From contig PMEM01000006.1 of assembly GCA_003155795.1 (NCBI GenBank), positions 11,040 through 75,039 on the forward strand: a DNA stretch of 64,000 bases. Direction: 5' to 3'. Origin of the DNA: Gemmatimonadota bacterium (GTDB lineage Bacteria; Gemmatimonadota; Gemmatimonadetes; Gemmatimonadales; Gemmatimonadaceae). Positions 4,551 to 64,000 of the stretch are shown piece after piece (the first letter of the stretch is position 1; every line of letters begins with the position of its first letter). Made by a program: the position numbers and the translations under genes. The notes under the pieces were generated by a model. It was given only the letters and a program-made list of their open reading frames with translations. It was not told the DNA's origin and made no database searches.

Positions 4551-5497
4551 ATCCAGCCCGCTGATCGCGCCCGGTCCGATATGATCGATGCCAGCTGGTT
4601 TATGAAGCGTGGGTCATCGTTAAGCGAAGGCGGCCGTTCAAGGCGCATTCCAAGGCTGTGAGCGATACGCTGTGCGTCGATGTCGATGTCGAAGAGGATC
4701 TCAACGTGATCGCTCACAAAACCAACCGGCACGCTTACAACGTTGCGGATGCCGCGCTCGGCAAGCGCCGCGAGATGTTCGGGATACGTCGGGCCGAGCC
4801 ATGGCTCGGGGCTGCGACCAGCAGACTGGTAGCTCCACGACCACGTGTCCGACGCGAGTCCAGCGCGATCTGCGACCAGGCTTGCGGTCTCGTGTACCTG
4901 TGCGTCGTAGGGATCTCCGGCGCGAATTATCCGCTCCGGAAGACTGTGTGCGCTAAAGATGACGTGAACTGACTCGCGCTCTTCCTCGGGCCATCTTGCG
5001 ATTGCGATATTCACGCGTTCCGCGAGTGCATCAATCAGGCCGGGAGCAGCGTGATAGCTGTCGATGTGCGCGAAGTCGATCGACGCACGGTACATGTCGA
5101 GGCCATCTGCTATTCTGCCCTGATACTTGGCGATGCTCATCCCGCTGTAGTGGGGAGCAAGCACGGCGCTTACGGCTCTCGTAATTCCATCTGCGGCCAT
5201 GAGGCCGACGGCATCCTCAATCCACGGCGCCCAGTGCCGCATTCCGACGTATATTCGGAATCGCGGCTCTCCATCGGCTGGATTCAGTGCACGTTCGACA
5301 CCTTGCGACTGCAAGTGCGTGAGTTCCGCGATAGGCGACCTGCCGCCTATTGCTTCGTAATTGCGAGTGATCTCCTGCAACACCGAGGGTGTCGTCGGTC
5401 GGCCATCGCGGATATCGGCGAGATAGCCCGGTATTTCTGCAAGCGAAGACGGTCCACCATACGCCATCAGAAGGACGCCGATAGGTGGGGACGTCAT
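4547..5497 (-). CDS. hemH: Ferrochelatase
   Basis: Inserts ferrous iron into the porphyrin ring. I place the start at the ATG at 5497, since the family opens with GVLLMAYGGP, which follows directly, and a good ribosome site (AAGGAATAAGG) precedes it. The longer frame to 5596 runs into hemE. The product has 316 residues with the catalytic His at about 184 (FSAHSLPERI) and the metal-side Glu at about 266 (SDHVEILFD). No C-terminal Cys motif for an Fe-S cluster is present. The gene sits four bases after hemE and overlaps the next gene by a few bases. Confidence 0.95.
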   Translation of the reverse strand: MTSPPIGVLLMAYGGPSSLAEIPGYLADIRDGRPTTPSVLQEITRNYEAIGGRSPIAELTHLQSQGVERALNPADGEPRFRIYVGMRHWAPWIEDAVGLMAADGITRAVSAVLAPHYSGMSIAKYQGRIADGLDMYRASIDFAHIDSYHAAPGLIDALAERVNIAIARWPEEERESVHVIFSAHSLPERIIRAGDPYDAQVHETASLVADRAGLASDTWSWSYQSAGRSPEPWLGPTYPEHLAALAERGIRNVVSVPVGFVSDHVEILFDIDIDAQRIAHSLGMRLERPPSLNDDPRFINQLASIISDRARSAGWM

Positions 5498-5501
5498 CGC
5501 C

Positions 5502-6638
5502 TTATTCCTTGGATGCAATTGCGGTCTGCTCATGGACGTATTCGACAAGTCGGCGAACGTTGTCCACGGATGTAGCGGGGAGGATCCCGTGACCAATGTT
5601 GAAGATGTGCCCGGGGTTCGAACCCGCGCGTCTCAACACGTCGTCCACCTGAGCCTTCAATTCGCGCCAGGGCGCGAGTAGTGCTATGGGATCGAGATTC
5701 CCCATGATTGCGCGAGTCGCGCCGAGGCGCGAGCGCACGGCGTCCAGCGGAGTCCGCCAGTCGATACCGACTACGTCGCCTCCACAAGCAGCGACATCAT
5801 CAATGTATGCGCCCGTCCCAGTGCTGAAGTTAATGACGGGCACGCCGACACCGGAGAGCGAATTGAACAGTTTTACGTTATATGGCCGCACGAATCTGTT
5901 GTAGTCGTGCGGCCCGAGTGCGCCAGCCCAGGAGTCGAACACCTGTAGGACGTCTGCTCCGGCGCGGGCTTGTGCGAGAAGATAGTCGCTCAATACGGTG
6001 ACAAGGCGTCGCATAAGCCTGCTCCATGCAGCAGGTTCTGCATACATGAAGGCCTTGGCCGTTTCGTATCGCTGCGATCCTCCGCCTTCAATTGCGTAGC
6101 AGGCGAGTGTGAACGGTGCACCTGCAAATCCTATCAACGGTTTGCTGGACGGCAGAGCAGCGCGCACGAGGCGTATGGCATCGAGCGTTCCGCGCAGCGT
6201 CTGCTCAGCGGGTGGAGTGCCCAGCATGTCAACATCGTGCGGGACACGCACCGGGTTGGCAATGCGCGGGCCCGTGCCCGAAACGAAATCGAGCTCCAGC
6301 CCCATACCAATGAGCGGCGGGAGGATATCGGAGAAAATGATTGCAGCGTCGACACCGAGTGCGTCAACTGGTTGCAAGGTGATCTCCGCGGCGACTGCTG
6401 GATCGCTGATAGCCTCCAGCATCGACTGGCGAGCGCGTATTGCGCGATACTCCGGCATGTACCGTCCGGCCTGACGCATGAGCCAGATGGGTGTGTGCGG
6501 CACGACCTCGCGTCGGCACGCGCGCACCATGAGCGAATCGGCTGCGGTACTCCGCGAGGTTGCATGCTGCCCGGGTCGCACCGGGGGCGCATGATGGGAC
6601 GCGGCCTGAAGAGTTTCCACCCTCAATCCTTGAGCCAA
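5502..6638 (-). CDS. hemE: Uroporphyrinogen decarboxylase
   Basis: Removes the four acetate carboxyls of uroporphyrinogen III to give coproporphyrinogen III. The signature PIWLMRQAGRYMPEYR carries the substrate-binding arginines, and GFAGAPFTLACY, STGTGAYIDD, GIDWRTPLD and GNLDPIALL follow in family order. The open frame begins at a TTG at 6638 inside the end of hemB. The first roughly 25-30 residues look poorly conserved, so the true start may be later; the ATG at 6530 (MVRACRREVV) is the next obvious candidate but would be slightly short. Length is 342-378 residues depending on start. Confidence 0.95.
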   Translation of the reverse strand: MAQGLRVETLQAASHHAPPVRPGQHATSRSTAADSLMVRACRREVVPHTPIWLMRQAGRYMPEYRAIRARQSMLEAISDPAVAAEITLQPVDALGVDAAIIFSDILPPLIGMGLELDFVSGTGPRIANPVRVPHDVDMLGTPPAEQTLRGTLDAIRLVRAALPSSKPLIGFAGAPFTLACYAIEGGGSQRYETAKAFMYAEPAAWSRLMRRLVTVLSDYLLAQARAGADVLQVFDSWAGALGPHDYNRFVRPYNVKLFNSLSGVGVPVINFSTGTGAYIDDVAACGGDVVGIDWRTPLDAVRSRLGATRAIMGNLDPIALLAPWRELKAQVDDVLRRAGSNPGHIFNIGHGILPATSVDNVRRLVEYVHEQTAIASKE

Positions 6639-48295: not shown

Positions 48296-51200
48296 CTAGT
48301 GGCCCATCATGAAGAGTCTTACTTTCACCGGACCTGTTGCTTTCAGGAGCAGCGCTGGGAGCCAGGGGAGAAGCCGTAGCTGAATTGGGCTCAGAATCTT
48401 CGGTAATGTCGCCTTGACGTCGTCGCGTGCTACATCCCAACCGGCCTGCACACCGCTTTCCTGCCGCTTCAGCGCTTCCGCCGAGTTGAAATCGTCCGGC
48501 AACGCGAACAAATCTTCCGCGAGGGATTGCCAGACCGGAGCGATGCGCGCCATATAGGCCGTATCCGCCTTTGACAGCGCGTCCGTCTGGTCACGCGTGA
48601 GCAATAGTGAATCCGACTCCTGAAGTATGTCCGCGTACGGATCAGGAACATTGCGTGAGTATAGCCGCACCAGCTCTTTCACCGAAAGCTTTGGTCCCTT
48701 CCGACCGCCGCGCCCGGGACCGATCCAGCGGTTGAGCTGTTGCTGCTGGATCGTGCGCCCCAGGGTCAGCGATATATCCAGAGTTACGCGAAACGGTGCT
48801 CGCAGCAGGGTGTTGCTGGGTTGAGTATTTCCGAAGCGCGGATTGATCGCGTATTTGAATCGATCAGCCGCAGGATCGAAACCAACCGGGCGGTACAGGA
48901 TTGGATCGGGGTAGGCTGAAGTTCCCCAGCCGCGGAGATTGTTCGCGCCATGGAGCAGTTGATCGAGGCCGCCGAGTGGATTCGATAGCGCCAGCGAGAT
49001 GGATCCGTACTGTCCAGTGAATGGCATCTGCCTGCCGTACTTGATTTGCGCATTCAGGGCAGTCGTCCATGGCCCCTCGCAGCTGTTCCGCTGCGCAGCG
49101 GAGCCGAATTGGCTGGTCAGGCAATTACGAACGCTCTTTGACGACGTCGCGAGAAGGGTCTGAGTTGCACTGGCGAGCGACGCATCCGACAGTGTTGCCG
49201 GATTGAAGATGAACGCGCGGTCGTTGGCGAACCCGTCTCCATTCACGTCTCCCCCGACCATCGGCGTGAACGGAAGTCCGGATTGAAGTCGGCCGAAAAA
49301 GGTCAACGAAACATCCTTGAATGCATAACCGCCCTGCAACAGCAATTGATGTCTGATATCGAGATTGCCTCTCGACCAATCGCGATCGAGTGGACTTCCG
49401 AAAGTCGATCCATCGAAGCCGCTCTCTCGCGATCGGGTGTCGGCAAGCGTGTAATGGAATCCGATAAACCAGTTGCTGACGTGTTCAAGTATCGGGGACG
49501 CAGAGATCGTTACCTGGCCACTGTGCGACGTCAAGGTTGAAACGTTCTCGATGACGTGCCCAAATAATTGCGAGTTCCGTGCGTCCACGGTCGATATGGC
49601 ACCGCTGGACGCAACGATGCTACCCGGATCCACAAAAACCGGCCGATCCTCGTCGGTCAACGTGAAGCGGGGCGTATCGCTGAAGTTGACGTCAACCCGA
49701 CCGGGTTGATTCAAATTGAGCGAGTAAAGTCCCTCGATCGCGTAGGTCAGGAAGTTTCGGAACTGCGATGAGTAGCTGAGGTTTGCTCGCCACGACCTCG
49801 GTGCGGTGTACGCAGGCGAGAAAAGCTGCACCGAGGGTGCAGCGTCTGTGAACGCCGGCGTTTGTCCACTGACGCATTGCGTGGGAATCAGGTTCGGATC
49901 GGACATGTACGCACTCCAGTCTGGAATTGGCGTCGCGGAGCCGACACACGATATCGTCTGAAGCCCGCCTGGCAGACCAGTCGCAATTGACGCATTGCTC
50001 AGCAGATTCGCGGGGAGAATATTCCGAAACTCTCCTATTCCACCGCGAATGTAACTGGCGGGCTCGAAGTGGAAGCTACCGAGCTGGTTGAAGGTGACGC
50101 CACCACCTGTCTGTCGAATCCACGTGAAGCCGATTCTGGGGCTGAAATGGACCGTGTTTGGAGCATCGTTGGTGCGCAACCCGAATGTTGATTCGACTTC
50201 GGGATTCGCCATGGGCGTCGATGTGTAGCGGTTGGCCTCGAATCGCCCTCCGTAAAGCACTTGAAGGTTTGGTGATACACGCCAGAGATCACCGACCGCT
50301 GCAAAGCCATTCCAGGCCGTTCCGTTGAGGCTTGGCGAGTTCAAAGATCGTGAAAAACCGGATGGCTGGTTCGCTGCCAGGTCGCCGAGCGAGTTGAACG
50401 AGAAACTGCCAAGCGAGTTGGAACTGACATCCTGGCGCACACCGTCAAATCGCGAATCTGCGTTGACTTTGATGAGATGCGAATTGCGACCGTGCAGGTA
50501 GAACTGCGTTTCGCTGGTAGTTTCCCAGGTCCACTTGCTGGTGGTGCTGAGCAGCGAACTGTTTCCGCCGAAGTTGAGCGAAGTAAGACCTCCGGTCCCA
50601 TCGGGGAAAGACGACCCGACGAGAACTGTTCCACCTGGTAGTGCGAGGAAGGGATCGGAGTTGTCGCGGGAATAGCTGAACGCACTGCGTTCTTCGTTCA
50701 GGAAGTCTTCATGCACAAACGTTGAGAACAGCGCCTGCAGCGTGCCCATCACCTCCGAGCTCGAACCCGAGTACGCCGCCGTTGCTGTCGGCGTAATGCT
50801 CAGTGCATTGTTATCCGAAACCTTGCCGTAAGCGAGCACACCCCACGTCGTCTTCGCGGGTTTGAAGGTGGTCCAATCGTATGGTGCGTGGTCGAACCGC
50901 CCTATGAAAGACGCGTTTTGCGAGATCTGAGAGGAGGGAACTGCCCGTGTGCGGATTGGGATTCCTGAAGCCGAGAGGATGTTGAACAACCTTGCCGCGG
51001 AGTCCGCGGAAACACCGGCATGCTGAAGCAGGTCAGGTGCCGCGTCGGATAGGGATACCGCATCCGAAACCCGTCGGCCGACATGCATGCCGTAGTTGTA
51101 CATGTACTTGTCGTCATCTACTGCGCCGTTGCCACCGAAGTCTGCGTTCACATTCGTATAACGCTGACCCATGCGCGCAGAAATCGGGTCGGTGTATTGC

Positions 51201-51973
51201 AGCGCGGGGAGATCGATCGTTACGTCGCCCTCACGTGATGAAAAGAGATTGCCTTGAGAGAGTTCGACGTTTTCGTTGAGGCCCCCAAACCAACCGCGCG
51301 CAGGGTCAAAGGTCGAACTGCTGACCCGAATGCTCTTTTTCGCTGCGCGCGGGACGTCGGCGCCACCAAACGCCAAGCCGTTCAGGGTCGTAGAGTTCTG
51401 ATCTGACCCCAGCCCGCCAACAGACAGACCTCCGGGCGTTGTCGCAACGCCCGGGATTGTTGCGCCTATCGCGGCAAGGTTGCCTTGCTGGTCTGGTGAT
51501 ACTGATGCTGCCACACCGCCAGCCAGTTGCTCTGCGGCACCGGCCTCCGTTCCAAACAAAAAGTCCTGCCGGTTCGGTGTTTCCTTCTTACCTGTAACCT
51601 CGACGGCAGCAAGCTGCTGCACACCAGCCCGCGCGAGTTTCGCGTTAACCGTGAAAACGGAATCCGGGCCCGTGCGCGTTACCCGCTTGCGAAAGGCCTC
51701 GTAACCGACGGCGGAGATGTGAACGAGGTAATCCCCGGAACCGTCGACGAACGCCATGGTGTAGTGGCCCGAACTGTCCGCCTTCGTCGCTCGTGAATCG
51801 CGCGTCGGCGCGATCGTAATGATGATGTCAGCATCGGGAATCGCCTTGCCGCTGTCTGTAGTGACAGTGCCGCGGATCGTATCGACATGCGCCTGCGCGC
51901 TAGCGTTGGTCGCCGTGGTTGTCACGGCGACCAACGCGGTGATTGCGATGATCCCCCGGCGTAGCGGTGTCAT
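48296..51973 (-). CDS. TonB-dependent receptor with N-terminal carboxypeptidase-like and C-terminal helical domains
   Basis: A large outer-membrane protein of 1225 residues. A signal peptide ends near NASAQA (27). Residues 28-115 are a carboxypeptidase-regulatory-like domain (IRGTVTTDSGKAIPDADI). A TonB-box-like VEVTG near 125 and a plug follow, then a long barrel to about 1085. After the barrel there is an unusual tail of about 135 residues that is helical and rich in Leu, Asp and Arg, with LLLTRDQTDAL near 1125 and ILSPIQLRLLPWLP near 1195, resembling LTxxQ periplasmic chaperone or metal-sensing proteins. The ligand is unknown. It is 11 bases after the M56-TonB gene and is probably coexpressed with it. 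Confidence 0.9.
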   Translation of the reverse strand: MTPLRRGIIAITALVAVTTTATNASAQAHVDTIRGTVTTDSGKAIPDADIIITIAPTRDSRATKADSSGHYTMAFVDGSGDYLVHISAVGYEAFRKRVTRTGPDSVFTVNAKLARAGVQQLAAVEVTGKKETPNRQDFLFGTEAGAAEQLAGGVAASVSPDQQGNLAAIGATIPGVATTPGGLSVGGLGSDQNSTTLNGLAFGGADVPRAAKKSIRVSSSTFDPARGWFGGLNENVELSQGNLFSSREGDVTIDLPALQYTDPISARMGQRYTNVNADFGGNGAVDDDKYMYNYGMHVGRRVSDAVSLSDAAPDLLQHAGVSADSAARLFNILSASGIPIRTRAVPSSQISQNASFIGRFDHAPYDWTTFKPAKTTWGVLAYGKVSDNNALSITPTATAAYSGSSSEVMGTLQALFSTFVHEDFLNEERSAFSYSRDNSDPFLALPGGTVLVGSSFPDGTGGLTSLNFGGNSSLLSTTSKWTWETTSETQFYLHGRNSHLIKVNADSRFDGVRQDVSSNSLGSFSFNSLGDLAANQPSGFSRSLNSPSLNGTAWNGFAAVGDLWRVSPNLQVLYGGRFEANRYTSTPMANPEVESTFGLRTNDAPNTVHFSPRIGFTWIRQTGGGVTFNQLGSFHFEPASYIRGGIGEFRNILPANLLSNASIATGLPGGLQTISCVGSATPIPDWSAYMSDPNLIPTQCVSGQTPAFTDAAPSVQLFSPAYTAPRSWRANLSYSSQFRNFLTYAIEGLYSLNLNQPGRVDVNFSDTPRFTLTDEDRPVFVDPGSIVASSGAISTVDARNSQLFGHVIENVSTLTSHSGQVTISASPILEHVSNWFIGFHYTLADTRSRESGFDGSTFGSPLDRDWSRGNLDIRHQLLLQGGYAFKDVSLTFFGRLQSGLPFTPMVGGDVNGDGFANDRAFIFNPATLSDASLASATQTLLATSSKSVRNCLTSQFGSAAQRNSCEGPWTTALNAQIKYGRQMPFTGQYGSISLALSNPLGGLDQLLHGANNLRGWGTSAYPDPILYRPVGFDPAADRFKYAINPRFGNTQPSNTLLRAPFRVTLDISLTLGRTIQQQQLNRWIGPGRGGRKGPKLSVKELVRLYSRNVPDPYADILQESDSLLLTRDQTDALSKADTAYMARIAPVWQSLAEDLFALPDDFNSAEALKRQESGVQAGWDVARDDVKATLPKILSPIQLRLLPWLPALLLKATGPVKVRLFMMGH

Positions 51974-51984
51974 TCGCTAATGGT

Positions 51985-53583
51985 TCAATGGATAGTGGCG
52001 AACGTGAAAGGCTGCTGCAGTAGTTGCTTCACCTTCCTCCCTCCAACTTCAGCCGGAGCGAAGCGCATCTCTGGTAGTGCCTTCAGTACGGCGCCCTTGA
52101 AGAGATCGTTGGTGGACCTGGTGATCTTGATCGGTGCGGACGGATCCAGGCGACCCGTTGTATCTACCGTGAACTCAGCGTCCACTTCTCCCCCAATGCC
52201 GGCACTGCGCAGGGCCGGCGGATAAACTGGCGCACCCGAGAGCGTGACAGCAGGCTTATCCACCTGATACGCGAAGTATGTCACATATGGATTCGGGTAT
52301 GTCCCAGGCACGACATGCTGGGCGCGTGCCGTTGCAGCGTTCAACTCGGCGCGACGCTTCATGAGTTCCACTTGCGCAACCTCGATCGCGGCTTGTGCCT
52401 TTTGGACGGCGGCGCTCCTCGCCGCCCGCTCACGCTCGATAACTCGTATGCTGTCGCGCTGACGCGCGGTCAACGTATCGGTTTTCGTGCGCTCCTGTGG
52501 AATCGTATCCAGAACCACGCGATTCACTCGACGCACCGAACCGGGTGTACCAATGGCTGCAGGGACCGGAGTGAAACCTGTCTGCACCTGTGCCACCGGC
52601 ACCGGCGAAGCAAAGGCGACTGTCACAGCCGCGACCGCGGCCAGTCCACCGCCGACCGCAGCTCTATATCCCGGCGTGCGCTTGCGTGTCATCGCGACGA
52701 GCCGTTGCTCCAACTCGGATGGCAGTCTTAGCAGTCCAACCATGGGTACAGCGAGCGGTCCCGTGCTGCGACCGCGCGCGGCGACTTCCAGCAGGACGTA
52801 ACCATACTCCCTTGCGCCCGGGAATCGTTTGAGCACGCGCGCATCACAGTCGAGCTCAATTGCACGACGGAGCCGCGCCGCGCACACCCACAGTCCGATA
52901 TTCCACGGCATCAACACGATCGCCGCAATCGCCAGCGCCAGACGCTCCGGATCATGCGCGTCGATGTGCTCGCCTTCATGTGCCAGGATCAACCTGCGAT
53001 GCTCCGGCTCCATCCGTGTTGCCCACGCCGGCACTACTATACGATGTGACAGAAAACCAAGCACCGCCGGCCCAGTGCTCGGCGACACATCGACGTCGAT
53101 ACCGTCGAGCGTGACCCTGTCCCACGATTGCCTCGCCGCGCGCCAGTGAATTATGCCGAGCGCAAGCCAAAGCACCAACGCCAGAGACAGGCCCAGCCAG
53201 ACGCACAACACAATTGTCGTTGCGCGCTGTCCCCATCCCGACCAGGCTGATAGCGTCGCGGACGCGTGAATCCACGTCGTACCAATCGATTCGACAATCC
53301 CGTGCCACAACGTCGATGGCGCACCGGGCTTTCCCGCGAGCGAGATCACCATGGGTGACAGCGACATCGGAAGCCCGCTCGTCGCATCGACCCGCGCAGC
53401 GCTTCGATCAGCGACGGTGTGCCAGGTGATCGCAGCCGCAGGCGCGACCAGCGCGAGTGCAATCGCGACCGTCCATACGTGCCGCGCGCCGACACGACCT
53501 TGCGAGCCCCACTCGATAGCGGCCGCCGCGCCTGCAATCAGCAGTGTGAAAAGCACGACGTATGCAAAAAGGATCGGAGTCAT
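51985..53583 (-). CDS. M56 (BlaR1/MecR1-like) membrane peptidase with C-terminal TonB domain
   Basis: A product of 532 residues. Membrane segments lie near 3-22, 36-55, 120-143, 215-235 and 307-327. The zinc-peptidase motif HEGEH is at 202-206 and a distal Glu is in AIELDCDARVL near 241-251. The periplasmic part has a coiled-coil rich in Ala, Arg and Glu (about 360-422) and ends with a TonB_C domain (434-532): YPPALRSAGIGGEVDAEF and EVGGRKVKQLLQQPFTF. It lacks a penicillin-binding sensor domain. Its start overlaps the BlaI-type repressor gene (ATGA). By analogy, it may cleave that repressor upon a signal, while the TonB end touches a receptor or the cell wall. Confidence 0.9.
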   Translation of the reverse strand: MTPILFAYVVLFTLLIAGAAAAIEWGSQGRVGARHVWTVAIALALVAPAAAITWHTVADRSAARVDATSGLPMSLSPMVISLAGKPGAPSTLWHGIVESIGTTWIHASATLSAWSGWGQRATTIVLCVWLGLSLALVLWLALGIIHWRAARQSWDRVTLDGIDVDVSPSTGPAVLGFLSHRIVVPAWATRMEPEHRRLILAHEGEHIDAHDPERLALAIAAIVLMPWNIGLWVCAARLRRAIELDCDARVLKRFPGAREYGYVLLEVAARGRSTGPLAVPMVGLLRLPSELEQRLVAMTRKRTPGYRAAVGGGLAAVAAVTVAFASPVPVAQVQTGFTPVPAAIGTPGSVRRVNRVVLDTIPQERTKTDTLTARQRDSIRVIERERAARSAAVQKAQAAIEVAQVELMKRRAELNAATARAQHVVPGTYPNPYVTYFAYQVDKPAVTLSGAPVYPPALRSAGIGGEVDAEFTVDTTGRLDPSAPIKITRSTNDLFKGAVLKALPEMRFAPAEVGGRKVKQLLQQPFTFATIH

Positions 53584-53957
53584 TTCGAACCCTCCTCAAG
53601 CCGTTCGTCCAACAGCGAGCGCAATCGACGCAACGTCGCGTCGTCCAGCCCACGATCCGAGACCATCTGAGTCAGGAGCTCTTCGGGCGATCCGCTAAAG
53701 AACTGACCAAGTACCCGGTCGATCGCGCTTGAACTTGCTTCATCGCGGTCGATCAATGCGCCATACCGATGCGCACGACCTTCCGCTTGCCGCGCTACGT
53801 GCCCTTTTTCTTCGAGCAGTCGGAGGATGGTAAGAATCGTGGTGTACGCGGCCCCATCGTCCAGCGCGTCCCGAACTTCTGCTACCGTGCTTGGCCCCCG
53901 CTCCCACAGAACCGTCATCAACTCCACTTCTCTCGGCGTCAATCGCTGCATGAGCAT
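53580..53957 (-). CDS. BlaI/MecI-family transcriptional repressor
   Basis: A small winged-helix repressor of 125 residues, or 123 from the second Met at 53951. Family marks are LTPREVELMTVLWERGPSTVAEV and AAYTTILTILRLLEEKG with the expected recognition helix, then a dimerisation part. In known systems a repressor of this kind is cleaved by a BlaR1/MecR1 membrane peptidase. Here the peptidase is the next gene, coupled by ATGA. A promoter and a dyad that would suit self-control lie just upstream. Confidence 0.93.
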   Translation of the reverse strand: MLMQRLTPREVELMTVLWERGPSTVAEVRDALDDGAAYTTILTILRLLEEKGHVARQAEGRAHRYGALIDRDEASSSAIDRVLGQFFSGSPEELLTQMVSDRGLDDATLRRLRSLLDERLEEGSK

Positions 53958-53976
53958 CCCCCGACAGAGTTTATAA

Positions 53977-53992
53977 TACTAATCCCATAGTA
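53977..53992 (-). promoter_or_regulatory. Candidate BlaI operator
   Basis: The dyad TACTA-N6-TAGTA lies over the -10 element of the operon promoter, where a bound dimer would block RNA polymerase. Size and TA-rich arms fit BlaI/MecI-type sites. Binding is inferred. Confidence 0.55.
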
Positions 53993-54015
53993 CTATATCT
54001 ATAATTGTTCGTCAA
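53987..54015 (-). promoter_or_regulatory. Promoter of the BlaI / M56-TonB / receptor operon
   Basis: On the minus strand TTGACG (54010-54015) and TACTAT (53987-53992) are separated by exactly 17 bases. Transcription would begin near 53980, some 20-30 bases before the repressor start. The -10 is part of a TACTA/TAGTA dyad. Confidence 0.65.
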
Positions 54016-56672: not shown

Positions 56673-58286
56673 ATGCGTTACCAAATGATCGGTCATCCTG
56701 TCCTATGCTTGACCCGAGCCGAAGACGTCAGCCCAGGAAGTGACCTTGTCATGAAAGCACGCCCAAACTCAAGCACAGCAACTCTGTCCGACGATATCGA
56801 TTCCGCCACGCTCATTGCAGCGCTTGCTGACATCGCGGTCAGGCTTACCGACGCTCGCCCGACCGAGCTGGTCGTCCAGGATGTACTGGAGCGCGCCCAC
56901 CTGACGGTTGGTGCGAGTGAGCTCTCCGTCTGGCTCGACGTGTCGGGTGTGCTCACGCGGATATGGGGTGCGGGGCCGGACGAGGCCTCCGTGGAGGAAT
57001 TGGGCGCAGCGTTGGCTGGCGCCACACACGACACCGTCGCGCGCGAGATGTTGTTCGGGCCTCGCCGCGTCGGAGTTCTCCTCGCGCGCTTTCAATCTGA
57101 TGTGGGCGAACCGGTGGAGCGCTTCCTGGAAGCGCTGGCTGCGCTGTTGGCCGCTTTCGTGGCCAATTCTGAACGGAGCCGCCGGCTCGAGAGTGACCTG
57201 CAGATTCGCATGCGGGAGGTGCAGGAGCAGAAACGGTTCACCGAAACGGTACTCGATCTGTTGCCACTCGGCCTCTATGTCATTGATCGCGATTACCGGA
57301 TCACCGTATGGAATCGGAAGCGCGAGACCGGTATGCAAGGCGTGTCGCGTGAAGAAGCGATCGGAAAGACCATATTCGAGATATTGCACCGTCAGCCTGC
57401 CGACGTGGTGCGCCGTGAGTTCGATGAAGTATTCGCCACCGGGAAGACGCAGCAGTTTCAGACCGAATCCAGCGCTAGTGGTTCACTGCGAACCTACAGA
57501 CTGTCCAAGATACCGATTCGCGATCCGCGCGGGGAAGTAACTCACATCATTACAATCGGCGAGGACATCACCGATTGGGTCGAAGCGCGCGAGCTGGTTG
57601 CGCAAAGCGAGAAGCTTGCTGCCATCGGCCGTCTCGCAGCGGGAATAATGCACGAGATAAACAATCCGCTTGCAACCATCGCAGCTTGCGCAGAGACGAT
57701 GGCGCTCGACACCAAGTCGGTTGAAGGTGAGCCCGAGTACCTGAAGATTATCGAGAGCGAAGTTCAGCGCTGCAAGCGCATCATCGACGGACTGCTGGAT
57801 TTCAGCAGACCGCGCGCGCAGGAGCGCGTCTCGCTTCAAGTGAATACCGTCGTGGAGCGGGCGCTGTTTCTGCTCAAACACCATGCGCGTTTCAAGCAGC
57901 TCACTGTGCAGGCGGAACTGGGGACGGAGCTCAGGAGCGTTCACGCCAGTTCGGAGCAATTGATACAGGTAATGATTGCGCTTCTCATGAACGCGGCAGA
58001 TGCGATGCCGCAGTACGGACGTGTCCTTGTCCGAACGCGACCGGCTCCCCGCGGTGCGAAGCACGTCGTCATAGAAGTGCAGGACGAGGGAACCGGCATG
58101 TCCCGCAACCAGATGGCAAGAATCTTCGAGCCGTTCTACACGACCAAGGAACCTGGCCGTGGCACGGGTCTCGGCCTGGCCATTTGTCACGGCATCGTTG
58201 CGGACCATGGTGGGCGTATCGAAGTCTCAAGCGAACCCGGTAAGGGAACGCGCTTTACAATTCTGCTCCCGGTGGAGGAAGCATGA
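56673..58286 (+). CDS. NtrB-like PAS sensor histidine kinase, soluble
   Basis: A product of 537 residues (511 from the ATG at 56751, which has AGGAAG upstream and may be the real start). There is no clear membrane segment. A GAF-like part lies at about 40-175, a short coiled-coil at 175-200, a PAS domain at about 200-310 (LPLGLYVIDRDYRITVWN), then HisKA with the phospho-His at about 327 (GIMHEINNPLATI) and HATPase_c with DEGTGM and GTGLGL. The architecture is that of cytoplasmic NtrB-type kinases. Its stop overlaps the start of the NtrC-like regulator (ATGA), its likely partner. Confidence 0.9.
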   Translation: MRYQMIGHPVLCLTRAEDVSPGSDLVMKARPNSSTATLSDDIDSATLIAALADIAVRLTDARPTELVVQDVLERAHLTVGASELSVWLDVSGVLTRIWGAGPDEASVEELGAALAGATHDTVAREMLFGPRRVGVLLARFQSDVGEPVERFLEALAALLAAFVANSERSRRLESDLQIRMREVQEQKRFTETVLDLLPLGLYVIDRDYRITVWNRKRETGMQGVSREEAIGKTIFEILHRQPADVVRREFDEVFATGKTQQFQTESSASGSLRTYRLSKIPIRDPRGEVTHIITIGEDITDWVEARELVAQSEKLAAIGRLAAGIMHEINNPLATIAACAETMALDTKSVEGEPEYLKIIESEVQRCKRIIDGLLDFSRPRAQERVSLQVNTVVERALFLLKHHARFKQLTVQAELGTELRSVHASSEQLIQVMIALLMNAADAMPQYGRVLVRTRPAPRGAKHVVIEVQDEGTGMSRNQMARIFEPFYTTKEPGRGTGLGLAICHGIVADHGGRIEVSSEPGKGTRFTILLPVEEA

Positions 58287-59626
58287 GTTCCGAGAATGGA
58301 GCTCCGATTCGCCTTCTGATCGCAGAAGACGAAGAGCATCTTGGCGCGATCCTCGAGCACTTTCTGCGCGGCCGAGGATATACCGTGACGATGTGCCGGG
58401 ACGGGCGCGCCGCTTTGACGGAACTGCACGCCGTTCCATACGACGTCGCGTTGATCGATATCGTCATGCCACAGATGGACGGACTCGAAGTCCTTCGCCA
58501 TCTGCAGAACGAGCCGGCTCCTCCGGAAGTGATCATCATCACCGGTAATGGGACGATCGATACGGCGATCACGGCTATCAAGCTTGGAGCGTACGATTAC
58601 ATCTCGAAGCCATATCGCATGGCGGAGATCGATGTAATGGTGCGTCGCGCGTGGGAGAAGCGGGAGCTTGGGAAGGCGAATGTGATGTTGCGTTCACGCT
58701 CGCACGTTCTACCATCTGCGATGACGAGTGGGAACGCGGTGATGGCGAGCGTGCTGGAGACCGTTGCAGTGACTGCACCAACCGATGCGCCAATCATCAT
58801 TTTGGGCGAGCGTGGCACTGGCAAGAGTCATGTCGCGCGCTACATCCACGCTTTGTCTGGAAGAGTGCGCGATTCACTCATCGAAATCAGGCGCTCTGCT
58901 GGCGAGTTGACGGATGCCGCGGCACTCGTGGGGCGCCAGGGAACTCCGTCGGGTGGCGCGATGCCAGCCGGTGCATTCCTTGCGGCCGATCGCGGGACGA
59001 CTGTAATCGATGTCGATTCGCTGAGCGCCGGCGCTACGAGCATGGTGGGGGCGGTACTTGCAGAAAAGTCGTTCACTCGCGCTGGCGGGAGCGCACGCGT
59101 TCCGTTGACATCACGATTGATCCTCTGTATGGACGAGAGCTCGGGCGGCGATGCGTTTGCAAACGTTGACGGCGCTGTCAGGCTGAGTCTTCCACCATTA
59201 AGGCAACGACATGAGGACCTCGCCTCACTCGCTGGGGAGTTGCTGGGCAGTCAGGTGGGGCCGGTACACACGATCGCGCCCGAGGCGATCGAAGTGCTCG
59301 CATCGTACAGTTGGCCAGGGAACGTCCAGGAGTTGAGCGTTGTTCTCGCCCGTTGCGCGCTGCTCGCCACACGGGAAAACATATCGGCGGGCGACCTCAG
59401 GTTGCTGCTCGCAACCGGGGCAATTGGCGTGGAAGGTAGGGGTGCACCACTCTCCGACCTGGAAAAGCTGCATATTGAAGCCATGCTAGTACGATTTCAT
59501 TGGCACCAGGGACGAGCCGCTGAGGCGCTGGGCATCTCGACGAAGACTCTGTATCGCAAGATGCGCGAGTTCGGATTTCAACGACCACGGAAGCGCAAAC
59601 TTGCGCGGGTGCGGCCGGAGGGATGA
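58283..59626 (+). CDS. NtrC-like response regulator with degenerate sigma-54 AAA+ domain
   Basis: A product of 447 residues. A receiver domain (1-120) carries the phospho-Asp at about 59 (ALIDIVMPQMDG). A reduced AAA+ domain (about 140-355) keeps Walker A GERGTGKS near 175, LPPLRQRHEDL with two Arg near 307 and SWPGNVQEL near 343. The GAFTGA loop that touches sigma-54 is missing, its place being taken by a Gly/Pro-rich stretch (PSGGAMPAGAFL), and the Walker B acidic pair is altered to TTVIDVDSLS. A Fis-type helix-turn-helix follows at the C-terminus (GRAAEALGISTKTLYRKM). It is probably a DNA-binding regulator that does not activate sigma-54. Its end overlaps the next regulator gene. Confidence 0.88.
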   Translation: MSSENGAPIRLLIAEDEEHLGAILEHFLRGRGYTVTMCRDGRAALTELHAVPYDVALIDIVMPQMDGLEVLRHLQNEPAPPEVIIITGNGTIDTAITAIKLGAYDYISKPYRMAEIDVMVRRAWEKRELGKANVMLRSRSHVLPSAMTSGNAVMASVLETVAVTAPTDAPIIILGERGTGKSHVARYIHALSGRVRDSLIEIRRSAGELTDAAALVGRQGTPSGGAMPAGAFLAADRGTTVIDVDSLSAGATSMVGAVLAEKSFTRAGGSARVPLTSRLILCMDESSGGDAFANVDGAVRLSLPPLRQRHEDLASLAGELLGSQVGPVHTIAPEAIEVLASYSWPGNVQELSVVLARCALLATRENISAGDLRLLLATGAIGVEGRGAPLSDLEKLHIEAMLVRFHWHQGRAAEALGISTKTLYRKMREFGFQRPRKRKLARVRPEG

Positions 59627-60291
59627 AGATCCTCGTAATCGAAGACGACCCGACCGTTGGTCAGTTCGTCAAGCGAGGACTCGAGGAGCAGCGCTGGACA
59701 GTGGATCTCGTGGAGAATGGAAATGAGGGAGAGTCGCTCGCGTTGACGGGTGACTACGATCTCATAGTCCTCGACATGCGCCTGCCCGGGAAATCGGGAA
59801 TTGAAGTGCTGCATGATCTTCGCGCGCGAAACTTTCAGCGACCGGTGCTCGTTCTCACAGCACAGGACGCAGTCGACGCGAAGGTGCAGACTCTGCGGGC
59901 GGGTGCGGACGACTACGTAACCAAGCCATTTGCGTTCGAGGAGCTCCTCGCACGTGTGGAGGCGCTGGCACGTCGCCCCGCGGCGATGGCGGCGCCGCTG
60001 ATGCAGGTCGCGGACCTCACCCTCGATGTCGATACGCGCGAGGTACGTCGAGGGAAGACGCTGATCGAACTGACGCCCAAGGAATACACGGTGCTCGAGT
60101 ATCTCATGCGACACCACGGTCGCGTCATGAGTCGCACTTTGATCACGGAATATGCGTGGGGATACCACTTTGATCCCGGCACCAATATCGTGGATGTCGT
60201 GATCAACCACCTGCGCAAGAAGATTGACGCCGACCACGAGAAGAAGCTGATCTCGACCGTGCGCGGTGTTGGATACGTTGTCCGCGGATGA
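59623..60291 (+). CDS. OmpR-family response regulator
   Basis: A product of 222 residues. The receiver has Asp 8-9 (IEDDP), the phospho-Asp at about 51 (VLDMRLPG), Thr in LVLTAQD and Lys in VTKPFAFEELLARV. The winged-helix DNA-binding domain covers about 125-222, with LTPKEYTVLEYLMRH and the recognition part NIVDVVINHLRKK followed by TVRGVGYVV. Its ATG overlaps the end of the NtrC-like gene and its end overlaps the HAMP kinase start (ATGA), which marks the kinase as its cognate partner. Confidence 0.95.
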   Translation: MKILVIEDDPTVGQFVKRGLEEQRWTVDLVENGNEGESLALTGDYDLIVLDMRLPGKSGIEVLHDLRARNFQRPVLVLTAQDAVDAKVQTLRAGADDYVTKPFAFEELLARVEALARRPAAMAAPLMQVADLTLDVDTREVRRGKTLIELTPKEYTVLEYLMRHHGRVMSRTLITEYAWGYHFDPGTNIVDVVINHLRKKIDADHEKKLISTVRGVGYVVRG

Positions 60292-61763
60292 TTCGAGCTC
60301 GACTCAAGCTGACGCTGCTCTTCACGGCCGCAATGATCGTGACGGGCACCGCGCTTGCAGTCGCTGTGTCTGCATCTCGAACCGCAGGGGCGTATAGCGC
60401 GATTGGGCGTGAGGCGCTCGCCGACGCGGACCTCGCAATGCGCATTATCGCGCAGTCAGCCCGGATGCGCGAACCAACCGTGATCCGGGATTCAACCAAT
60501 CTCGAGACGATTTCGCGGAACGTAGCTGAGCGGCTCGATGTCGTACCCGGATACGTTGTAATCGTCAGCCGCAAGGCGAACGTGGTGTACACCTCCGCCG
60601 ATGCGGCTGATCTTCCGGACACGGATTGGGCAAGCCTGCAACGTGGAATCGCTGATCTGCCGAACGACGGGCCGGCCGGCGTAATCACGATTGGGGACGA
60701 GCGCGTGCTGTTCGTGGCGCATGCAATCACCGATACCACGATAGATATCTCGCGAGTGGTAGCGGGCGTGCGTGTGCGCGGGGCTCAGAATCTTCCGGCT
60801 GAGCTCGTCACAACGATCTTCGCTGTCATGCCAGTCGTCATCGCTCTTGCGTCGTGGGGCATGTGGCTCCTGCTTGGCGGTACTTTTCGACGCATAGAAG
60901 AGGTGCGTCGCGTCGTCGCCGATATCACGGACGGCCGAAGCCTGCATCGGCGGCTATCGGACGACGAAGCCAGTCCGGAGATCGCTGCGCTCATATTGAC
61001 ACTCAACTCCATGATTGCGCGGCTCGAGACATCGTTCGCCGCCCTGCGTCGATTTACCGCCGACGCGAGCCACGAGTTGAAGACGCCTCTTGCTGTTCTT
61101 CGCGCGGATGTAGAACGCGCAATGAGTTCGAACACGCGCAAGGATGACCGGCTCGTCGCGCTTGAGGAAGCACTGCATGAAACGACGCGCATGGCCGATC
61201 TGGTGGAGAGCCTGCTTACCCTCGCGCGCGCCGATGAAGGAAGGTTCGATCTCCATCTCGAACGCGTCGATCTTGCCGAACTGACGCTGGAAGTTTACGA
61301 AACTGCATTGATTCTTGGTGAGGCCGCGGGCGTCGCGGTGAACATGCCGTTCTCAGCTGAAGTATCCATCTCCGGAGATCGTACGCGGCTCAGGCAGCTG
61401 TTCCTGAATCTCGTGACAAACGCGATCAAGTACACGCCGGCCGGCGGACGTGTTGACATCGGGCTTGGTCGCCATCCTGACAACGTTACGTTTGCGGTTC
61501 GCGACACAGGCGCAGGCATTGCCGCGGCCGACGTGCCACATATTTTTGAAAGATTCTGGCGAGCGGATCGAGTGCGGTCGCGCACAGCAGAGCGCGGTGG
61601 CTTTGGACTTGGGCTTGCAATCAGTCAGTGGATCGCGCAGGCGCATGGCGGATCGCTCGCTGTACAATCACGACTTGGAAAGGGATCGTTATTCACTTTG
61701 ACCCTTCCACTCGATGCCGCGGATCGCGGGAGTGTTGACGACCTGGAAATACTGCCTGAATGA
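60288..61763 (+). CDS. HAMP-domain sensor histidine kinase
   Basis: A product of 491 residues. Membrane segments are near 9-30 and 175-195 and enclose a periplasmic sensor of about 140 residues. A HAMP linker follows (about 196-250, GTFRRIEEVRRVVADI), then HisKA with the phospho-His at about 262 (DASHELKTPLAVL) and HATPase_c with NLVTNAIKYTPAGG, DTGAGI, FERFWRADRVRS and GFGLGLAI. It is the last of four overlapping signalling genes and pairs with the OmpR-type regulator before it. Confidence 0.95.
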   Translation: MIRARLKLTLLFTAAMIVTGTALAVAVSASRTAGAYSAIGREALADADLAMRIIAQSARMREPTVIRDSTNLETISRNVAERLDVVPGYVVIVSRKANVVYTSADAADLPDTDWASLQRGIADLPNDGPAGVITIGDERVLFVAHAITDTTIDISRVVAGVRVRGAQNLPAELVTTIFAVMPVVIALASWGMWLLLGGTFRRIEEVRRVVADITDGRSLHRRLSDDEASPEIAALILTLNSMIARLETSFAALRRFTADASHELKTPLAVLRADVERAMSSNTRKDDRLVALEEALHETTRMADLVESLLTLARADEGRFDLHLERVDLAELTLEVYETALILGEAAGVAVNMPFSAEVSISGDRTRLRQLFLNLVTNAIKYTPAGGRVDIGLGRHPDNVTFAVRDTGAGIAAADVPHIFERFWRADRVRSRTAERGGFGLGLAISQWIAQAHGGSLAVQSRLGKGSLFTLTLPLDAADRGSVDDLEILPE

Positions 61764-61951: not shown

Positions 61952-62662
61952 ATGTTCAACCAGCTAATCGAATCGAAGCGCAAGAAGAAACGTAGCCCGG
62001 GCACGACTGCGTTCAGCATCGGGCTGCACGCGGGGCTGATCGGTCTCGCCGTCTGGGCGACAGCTAATGCCGCCATCAAGAACGAGAAGCCCAAGGCTGA
62101 GAAGATCGAGTTCGTCCAGGTAAAGAAGGACGAGCCACCTCCGCCCAAGAAGGAGACGCCCCCACCGCCGAAGGACGTGACGGTCGCGCCGCCTCCGCCA
62201 AAGGGTTTCCAGGTCCTGCAAGCGCCTCCGATCGTGCCGGTGAAGATTCCGGACATCGATCTCTCCAAGAAAGTCACCAACGCCGCTGACTTCAGTGGAA
62301 AGGGCGTCGCAGGTGGTGTAGCCAATGGCGTCGTTGGCGGAACCGGGCCGGTCAATACGGACCAGACTTACTTCTCCTACCAGGTGGAGAAGCCTGCGGC
62401 CACGCGCTCAGGTTCGCCAACTTATCCAGAGACACTGCGCAGTGCAGGCATCGAAGGTGAAGTTGACGCCGAGTTCACGGTCGATACCACAGGTCGCGTA
62501 GATGAGAATGCGCCTATCAAGATTACGAAGGCCACCAATGATCTTTTCAAGGCCGCTGTGCTCAGCGCACTCCAGAGGATGCGCTTTTATCCAGCGGAAG
62601 TAGGCGGCCGGAAGGTCAAGCAGCTTGTGCAGCAGCCGTTCACGTTCACGATCACTCATTAA
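61952..62662 (+). CDS. tonB: TonB energy-transducer protein
   Basis: A product of 236 residues with a basic N-terminus and a membrane segment near 18-40 containing the family His (IGLHAGLIGL), then a Lys/Pro/Glu-rich spacer (about 45-85, DEPPPPKKETPPPPKD), a Gly-rich linker, and a C-terminal TonB_C domain (about 145-236) with YPETLRSAGIEGEVDAEF and EVGGRKVKQLVQQPFTF. This domain closely matches that of the M56 peptidase at 51985-53583. It spans the periplasm and passes proton-motive force to outer-membrane receptors. exbB and exbD follow on the same strand. Confidence 0.94.
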   Translation: MFNQLIESKRKKKRSPGTTAFSIGLHAGLIGLAVWATANAAIKNEKPKAEKIEFVQVKKDEPPPPKKETPPPPKDVTVAPPPPKGFQVLQAPPIVPVKIPDIDLSKKVTNAADFSGKGVAGGVANGVVGGTGPVNTDQTYFSYQVEKPAATRSGSPTYPETLRSAGIEGEVDAEFTVDTTGRVDENAPIKITKATNDLFKAAVLSALQRMRFYPAEVGGRKVKQLVQQPFTFTITH

Positions 62663-62692: not shown

Positions 62693-63433
62693 ATGCATCT
62701 CTCGCTAATTGACCTTTGGGCCCAGATGGCTGGCTTCGCTCGCGGCATCGTTTATGTGCTCGCGATCATGTCGATCTGGACTCTGTCAATCTCGATCAAG
62801 AAATGGTGGGACCTCCGCTCGGCTCAGAAAGAGACGCGTAAGTTCGCCCCGGAGTTCTCGCAGTTCCTCGAAGAAGACAATCTCGTTGAAGCCGCAAACC
62901 TGTCGCAGCGTTATAAGAAGTCGCACGTCGCTCGTGTTCTCGCCGGCGCACTTTCGGAGACCCGTGCACTCGTCCAGGATGGCTCTGTAACGATTGCTGA
63001 CATCAACTCGGCAGAACGCGCAATCGAGCGCGAGATGTTGATGACGATCACCGACCTGAAGCGCGGACTCGGCGTTCTGGCGACAAGCGGCGCAACGGCA
63101 CCGTTCGTCGGACTGCTCGGAACAACGATGGGTATCATCAACGCCTTCACCGGCATGGCGGTTTCTGGATCAGGCGGTCTTTCCGCAGTATCAGGCGGTA
63201 TTTCCGAAGCTCTTATTACAACGGCTCTTGGTCTTCTCGTCGCAATTCCAGCGGTGTGGCTGTTCAACTACTTCCAGACCAAGGTTGACAATCTCACGGC
63301 TGAGATGACCTACACGTCCAAGGAAATGATTGATTACCTGATCAAGAACGTCTCGGGTGAGTTCGGCCGCAGCCGGTTCACGCGTGAGTTCAACACGACG
63401 GCAACCGCAGGCAACGCCCCGATTTCGAAGTAA
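62693..63433 (+). CDS. exbB: ExbB/TolQ/MotA-family proton-channel protein
   Basis: A product of 246 residues with three membrane segments near 13-35, 130-155 and 175-197. The family signature is seen as LATSGATAPFVGLLGTTMGI near 126-145 and GGISEALITTALGLLVAIPA near 165-184. It forms the pore ring with ExbD and drives TonB. It starts 30 bases after tonB. ExbB and TolQ cannot be told apart by sequence alone, but the adjacent tonB favours ExbB. Confidence 0.93.
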   Translation: MHLSLIDLWAQMAGFARGIVYVLAIMSIWTLSISIKKWWDLRSAQKETRKFAPEFSQFLEEDNLVEAANLSQRYKKSHVARVLAGALSETRALVQDGSVTIADINSAERAIEREMLMTITDLKRGLGVLATSGATAPFVGLLGTTMGIINAFTGMAVSGSGGLSAVSGGISEALITTALGLLVAIPAVWLFNYFQTKVDNLTAEMTYTSKEMIDYLIKNVSGEFGRSRFTREFNTTATAGNAPISK

Positions 63434-63529: not shown

Positions 63530-64000
63530 ATGTCAATGTCAACGTCGGGCGGAAACGAGGTTCGCGCTGAGCCGAACGTGACTCCGATGATCGACGTCAT
63601 GCTGGTTCTGCTGATCATTTTCATGGTCATCATTCCATCGCTGGTGTCGGGCGTCAACGCCAGACCGCCGCTTGGTCAGAACCTGAAGCCACTCCCTGTG
63701 CAGGACCAGGATCAGGTCCTCGGTATAGACGAACAGGGTCAGTACTTCCTCAATCGCCAGGCCATCCCAAACAACACGCTTGGTACGGCGCTGAACAACA
63801 TCTATACCACGCGCACCGTGGACAAGATTCTCTACGTCAAGGCTGACAAGGATCTGGCATATGGCCAGGTCATGAATGCGCTCGACGTAGCGGCTCACAA
63901 TGGCGTTCACATGACAGCTCTCGTCACTGATCAGCAGCCGGGTACCAGGTCGAACATCGCGACCGATAATATCGATCCTGTCTCGAAGTCTGGAGGGAGC
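63530..64000 (+). CDS. exbD: ExbD/TolR-family protein, 3' end cut by window edge
   Basis: An open frame from ATG 63530, preceded by GAGGA, that runs past the window end; 157 residues are seen. One membrane segment (about 19-40) contains the proton-carrying Asp in NVTPMIDVMLVLLIIFM. A periplasmic domain follows, with VDKILYVKADKDLAYGQVM typical of ExbD/TolR. It completes a tonB-exbB-exbD operon. A second ExbD-like gene often follows in such clusters, but this is not visible here. Confidence 0.93.
   Translation, partial: MSMSTSGGNEVRAEPNVTPMIDVMLVLLIIFMVIIPSLVSGVNARPPLGQNLKPLPVQDQDQVLGIDEQGQYFLNRQAIPNNTLGTALNNIYTTRTVDKILYVKADKDLAYGQVMNALDVAAHNGVHMTALVTDQQPGTRSNIATDNIDPVSKSGGS

Follow-up and report, generated by a model that had tools for sequence, protein, structure and literature searches.

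How does a zinc peptidase of the BlaR1 type that lacks a penicillin-binding sensor come to share an operon with an outer-membrane receptor, and what could its periplasmic part be sensing instead? This question is raised by a three-gene locus in a 64,000-nucleotide stretch of a Gemmatimonadaceae genome (assembly GCA_003155795.1, contig PMEM01000006.1, positions 11,040 to 75,039; hereafter the window), in which the genes for a BlaI-type repressor, an M56 peptidase with TonB_C at its C-terminus and an Oar-type receptor follow one another on the minus strand. We propose that the operon encodes an autoregulated receptor switch on the BlaI/BlaR1 plan, with the TonB_C tail reading the receptor, a proposal that we hold, as a whole, with slightly better than even confidence; all inferences on the operon are sequence-based. 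The window genome (G000; about 4 Mb, 95% complete) was compared with three further species of its genus (G021, G023 and G300, of which the first two are nearly alike), and with 104 M56 loci from across the phylum, a non-random sample since the loci were ranked by how closely they resemble the window peptidase. The assemblies are metagenome-assembled genomes, genes were called with a purpose-built simple caller, and receptors in the survey were detected with a single family profile and Pfam spot checks.

An earlier note, made from the sequence letters, had described three minus-strand genes with ATGA and 11-base junctions, a reading with which the open reading frame calls and Pfam agree. The first gene, blaI (53580..53957), encodes a 125-aa winged-helix repressor of the BlaI/MecI type (Pfam Penicillinase_R, E 9e-29, 100.6 bits vs. 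a cut-off of 22.6) that phmmer aligns with MecI structures, and overlaps the peptidase gene (51985..53583) by the ATGA. The 532-aa peptidase matches Peptidase_M56 (6e-18) and TonB_C (4e-9, residues 451-529), the latter forming a tail that is predicted to be periplasmic (about residues 450-529, 51997..52236; Pfam and NCBIfam both above cut-off), and its sequence matches in the PDB are TonB C-terminal domains. Its HEGEH zinc site (residues 202-206, 52966..52980) is the motif as found in BlaR1, and E243-x3-D247 (52857-52843) completes the gluzincin signature, HEXXH plus ExxxD, given for that protein (PMC9834060); the zinc ligands and the catalytic Glu are invariant in an alignment of three orthologues. 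Five hydrophobic segments fit four membrane helices and a re-entrant one. Neither Pfam nor NCBIfam matches a penicillin-binding domain in the peptidase, and the BlaR1 equivalog model scores 22 bits against a cut-off of 400, so that the protein is an M56 peptidase of the BlaR1 type and not a BlaR1. The zinc motif, the TonB_C end and the missing sensor had all been part of the earlier description, and all are borne out.

Eleven bases further on, the third gene (48296..51973) encodes an Oar-type outer-membrane receptor of 1225 aa, with CarboxypepD_reg (32-113) and OMP_b-brl_4 (346-977) domains in Pfam, a barrel model match at E 2e-15, and a family profile with a match to the N-terminal portion of a TonB-linked receptor of known structure. 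A Pfam search gives no Plug hit for this protein, and one paralogue matches Plug just below the cut-off. The label "TonB-dependent receptor" used in the note therefore depends on the family type and on a TonB-box-like stretch, LAAVEVTG (residues 121-128, 51590..51613), which was located by paralogue alignment and is a resemblance only. There is no match to an STN signalling domain on the receptor, and the operon holds no genes for an extracytoplasmic function (ECF) sigma or anti-sigma factor.

Control of these genes can be approached through the promoter, where, as had been noted, the -10 lies within a TACTA-N6-TAGTA dyad. The -35 hexamer TTGACG (54010..54015, minus strand), present in all four genus members, is separated by 17 bases from the -10 TACTAT (53992-53987), giving TTGACG-17-TACTAT at 54015-53987, and the -10 makes up the first six bases of a candidate BlaI operator (TACTA-TGGGAT-TAGTA, TACTATGGGATTAGTA; 53977..53992, minus strand) predicted from the sequence. 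The dyad by itself is weak evidence: it was found once in the window genome with about one occurrence expected by chance, and its uniqueness was dropped as an argument. The composite TTGACG-N16-18-TACTAT-N5-TAGTA is another matter, with five occurrences in the four genus genomes vs. roughly 0.001 expected from base composition, one at each of the four blaI genes and one at a receptor gene of G300 unlinked to blaI. A TACTA-type dyad also precedes blaI in many Gemmatimonadota, which points to an autoregulatory site over the -10 that is conserved in genus and phylum. Across the phylum, blaI promoters carry TACTA-N6-TAGTA in 27 cases and a second class, TACGG-N6-CCGTA, in 19 (about 0.2 and 0.8 expected in shuffles at an equal score). 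Where it is readable, the recognition helix of BlaI tracks the dyad class (AYTTVLTVLR with TACTA and AYTSVLSALQ with TACGG; TT 20:1 and TS 17:1), which supports the dyads as true BlaI sites.

In G021 and G023 the whole operon and its dyad stand at the same place, between genes for an AhpC-type peroxiredoxin and an aminotransferase; the M56 gene shares four bases with the receptor gene, and the receptors are 70% identical. In G300 the AhpC gene comes next after the M56 gene, no receptor is present there, and the peptidase has a different, unassigned tail, without TonB_C. Two contigs (C363 and C239) each hold a part of this locus, whose 5' part is uncertain because a foreign-looking stretch makes up the first 500 bases of C239; synteny is normal in the 3' part. 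The closest G300 receptor (58% identical), encoded on another contig, has a promoter (TTGACGGACGAATGGAGGGCATGTACTATGGCAATAGTACTAAAGCTCTAGTA) with the same -35/-10/dyad arrangement as the G300 blaI promoter (TTGACGACGGTGGCAAAAGGTAGTACTATCGCAATAGTACTAGACTCTTAGTA), namely TTGACG-17-TACTAT with tandem dyads, 36 bp before the called start. With the composite box present before every blaI gene and before the unlinked receptor, control of the receptor by BlaI is predicted in four of four species, acting in trans in G300 and in cis in the other three, and we consider it very probable that the BlaI/M56 pair governs the receptor.

What the peptidase tail might bind is suggested by its kinship. A housekeeping tonB (61952..62662, plus strand; Pfam TonB_C), the source or sister of the tail, lies 8 kb away, followed by exbB (62693-63433, plus strand; named by sequence resemblance and position) and a first exbD (plus strand, from 63530 to the window end at 64000; named by resemblance). 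This cluster has orthologues in the other three genus members and directly follows two sensor kinase/regulator pairs (56673-61763), an order kept in G021 and G023. The peptidase tail shares 71-77% identity with the window TonB, and in a tree of 18 domains the M56 tails and TonBs of the genus form one group (99/99), apart from the M56 tails of other genera. The tail thus appears to have been taken from, or homogenised with, the tonB of the genus, and this kinship favours the view that it engages the same partners as TonB. Within the group the window tail pairs with the window TonB (98/88). Separate capture or conversion of the tail from its own tonB in each genome was entertained and is not established: a single M56-tail clade is not rejected (approximately unbiased test, p 0.18), and the residue patterns are mixed (6 same-genome vs. 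9 same-gene). Tail and linked receptor occur together in G000, G021 and G023, and both are missing at the G300 peptidase. The linker from peptidase domain to TonB_C measures 136-147 residues (about 147 in the window), among the longer ones surveyed, and a long periplasmic helix (residues 362-421, 52321..52500, minus strand) is predicted between the last membrane segment and TonB_C, in a low-confidence model with a predicted local distance difference test score (pLDDT) of mostly 58-73. AlphaFold models built from two-row alignments (mean pLDDT 42 for the peptidase and 28 for the receptor) were too poor for use. Inspection of the sequences finds the SxxxH membrane anchor in the window TonB (SIGLH) and not in the membrane segments of the peptidase, which is therefore probably not driven by ExbB/ExbD. 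As a separate observation, an accessory TonB-like gene stands directly upstream of the blaI promoter at two loci (L050:8624-9328, minus strand; L200:3771-4463, plus strand); its G023 and G300 versions are 58% identical and carry a SIALH anchor, and it is absent in the window.

Taken together, these features suggest a sequence of events in which BlaI, bound to the dyad over the -10, would repress all three genes of the operon, its own included, a step strongly implied by the operator and its conservation. By analogy with BlaR1, the zinc site would face the cytoplasm and the tail would extend into the periplasm on its long linker, where it may touch the outer-membrane receptor, probably at the TonB-box/plug region, and read its presence or engagement. 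Such contact would set the protease, BlaI would be cut, and receptor synthesis would be raised or capped, with either sign conceivable. In FecA/FecR-type systems receptor contact governs proteolysis of the inner-membrane regulator and may protect that regulator without a signal (PMC11637429), which is why we favour neither sign. Of these steps only the operator logic is well supported. That the peptidase acts by cutting BlaI seems likely to us; the cleavage pair of Staphylococcus aureus BlaI, Asn101-Phe102, corresponds in the MecI alignment to Gln-Met in the window BlaI. That the TonB_C domain senses receptor or TonB engagement is a plausible suggestion, to which we give not quite an even chance.

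The phylum survey qualifies this proposal. BlaI lies just upstream in 72 of the 104 M56 loci, and the peptidases end in TonB_C, in Plug, in both or in other tails. Among the 87 loci with at least 1.5 kb of downstream sequence, a receptor of this family directly follows the M56 gene solely in the window, in G021, in G023 and at one G312 locus, whose M56 gene has neither BlaI nor TonB_C; several other large downstream genes, checked by Pfam, are not receptors. The linkage of M56-TonB_C with an adjacent receptor, for which such a survey had been suggested, is thus found within the genus and at no surveyed locus outside it, and is a genus trait. The circuit that the note had put forward is thus supported in part: predicted receptor control is conserved in all four sampled genus members, and as a general rule beyond them the linkage is not supported. 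A search for a receptor regulon across the phylum gave none, as dyad matches in other genera fall mostly at blaI genes, with some of the remainder at secreted PIG-L-type proteins and others elsewhere. Several observations weigh against the proposal. Some 35 M56-TonB_C genes outside the genus have enough downstream sequence and no receptor behind them, and in several of the proteins the linker is just 50-75 residues long, probably not enough to span the distance to the outer membrane, so that TonB_C there likely does something else. A tyrosine kept in the TonBs of the genus is lost in both M56 tails (FYPAE to FAPAE), by which binding may differ. Since G300 appears to regulate its receptor through a peptidase that lacks TonB_C, BlaI control does not require the tail, and four species, two of them nearly alike, represent few independent events.

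The chief alternative accepts BlaI/M56 control of the receptor but has the tail sense peptidoglycan, ExbB/ExbD or TonB near the inner membrane or cell wall, in which case the circuit would report envelope or energy state and the receptor would be output only. M56-TonB_C proteins without receptor neighbours, often with short linkers that probably oblige the domain to sense something closer to the inner membrane, are the common form in the phylum, and G300 seems to regulate its receptor with a peptidase that has no such tail, both as this alternative would have it; we nevertheless judge it less likely, as the tail of the genus is kin to the housekeeping tonB and present only where the receptor is linked. 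BlaI and M56 peptidases belong to beta-lactam sensor families, and in another genus the gene after an M56 gene (L060) has a Pfam match to Beta-lactamase, which would suit a penicillin- or wall-stress-sensing system with an incidental receptor neighbour. The window peptidase lacks a penicillin-binding domain, however, and the receptor keeps the same operator when unlinked, leaving this explanation very improbable. The limitation of the linkage to one genus would also agree with a receptor that is independent of BlaI and lies downstream by chance, the dyad serving blaI alone; such a coincidence is made very improbable by the junctions, which in three species measure 11 bases or overlap, and by the promoter of blaI type before the unlinked G300 receptor.

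Read as a receptor switch, the operon shares with BlaI/BlaR1 and MecI/MecR1 of S. aureus and Bacillus licheniformis (PMC9834060) the winged-helix repressor, the M56 HEXXH...ExxxD peptidase and the dyad over the promoter, and differs in having a TonB_C tail where BlaR1 has its penicillin-binding sensor, and in its predicted output, an outer-membrane receptor rather than a beta-lactamase. The closest functional analogue would be cell-surface signalling through FecA/FecR/FecI and FoxA/FoxR/FoxI (PMC11637429, PMC9249621), which likewise place a receptor gene under a circuit with a periplasm-reaching inner-membrane part and regulated proteolysis, whereas here a TonB tail carried by the protease would face the receptor. 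That tail has the C-terminal domain of the TonB energy transducer without its SxxxH anchor. The common M56 proteins of other Gemmatimonadota with TonB_C or Plug tails share the architecture and a BlaI-type operator, and the genus departs from the other M56-TonB_C proteins in the kinship of the tail to its own tonB, a linker longer than most, and a receptor in the operon. The window operon would accordingly be a genus-level, receptor-controlling variant of BlaI/BlaR1, with the sensing step an attractive inference. Paper searches within an open-access library turned up no account of a receptor under the control of a BlaI/M56-TonB circuit. If the proposal is correct, a TonB-tailed protease that reads receptors directly, without a sigma factor, would constitute a new route from the outer membrane to gene expression, and would answer a standing question about the M56 family, the role of its widespread members without a penicillin sensor, in a form testable with a small operon.

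The window genome carries one BlaI/M56 system of each operator class. The second, on contig C60 (L048, G000:C60:8000-26000; M56 gene at 4716-6239, blaI at 6236-6601), has a peptidase that ends in part of the Plug domain of a TonB receptor. Its promoter boxes (CCTACGGAAAAACCCGTTGACA...TACGGGAAAGGCAGTAG) recur as near letter-for-letter copies before two other Oar-type receptors on contigs C39 and C38 (L107:6164-9889 and L106:14063-17857, both plus strand), so that both systems of this genome have receptors as predicted targets. The composite has no further match in the window genome, and in 179 family genomes it otherwise stands mostly before blaI, among the loci examined. Phylum-wide, TonB_C tails go with the TACTA class (23:0) and Plug tails with the TACGG class (19:2). 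This association (23:0 vs. 2:19, p 1.5e-10) was set aside as independent evidence, since the tree has only three changes of either trait, and is a subfamily-level fact. We tentatively suggest, at rather less than even confidence, that two insulated BlaI/M56 circuits, with the TonB half or the plug half on their peptidases and with their own operators (TACTA-N6-TAGTA and TACGG-N6-CCGTA), provide sigma-factor-free cell-surface signalling in Gemmatimonadota, each able to recruit receptors.

Some minor observations were also made. A gene for a 110-aa lipoprotein-like protein, located before probable phospholipid/inositol-phosphate synthase genes (named by sequence resemblance only), is preceded at a distance of 39 bp by a bare TACTA dyad in the three other genus members (L202:5556-5888, L203:5639-5971, L201:5493-5161) and has only a half site in the window genome (L110:17181-17513); part of this dyad is the end of the upstream coding sequence, which makes it a weaker candidate. 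At one locus of another genus (L063:5984-12184), the gene for an M56 protein of 804 aa, which has neither BlaI nor TonB_C, is separated by 6 bases from a downstream gene for an Oar-type receptor that belongs to a different branch. A Sortilin/Vps10-like gene lies upstream of the second system of the window genome (L048), and Plug-tailed M56 loci (L131, L142, L128, L083) often have in their vicinity a gene for a large protein that contains an M14 zinc carboxypeptidase domain. Two tandem TonB_C domains occur on the M56 proteins of L058, L071, L072, L074, L075, L120, L167 and L175, and TonB_C is combined with Plug on those of L080, L147 and L171.

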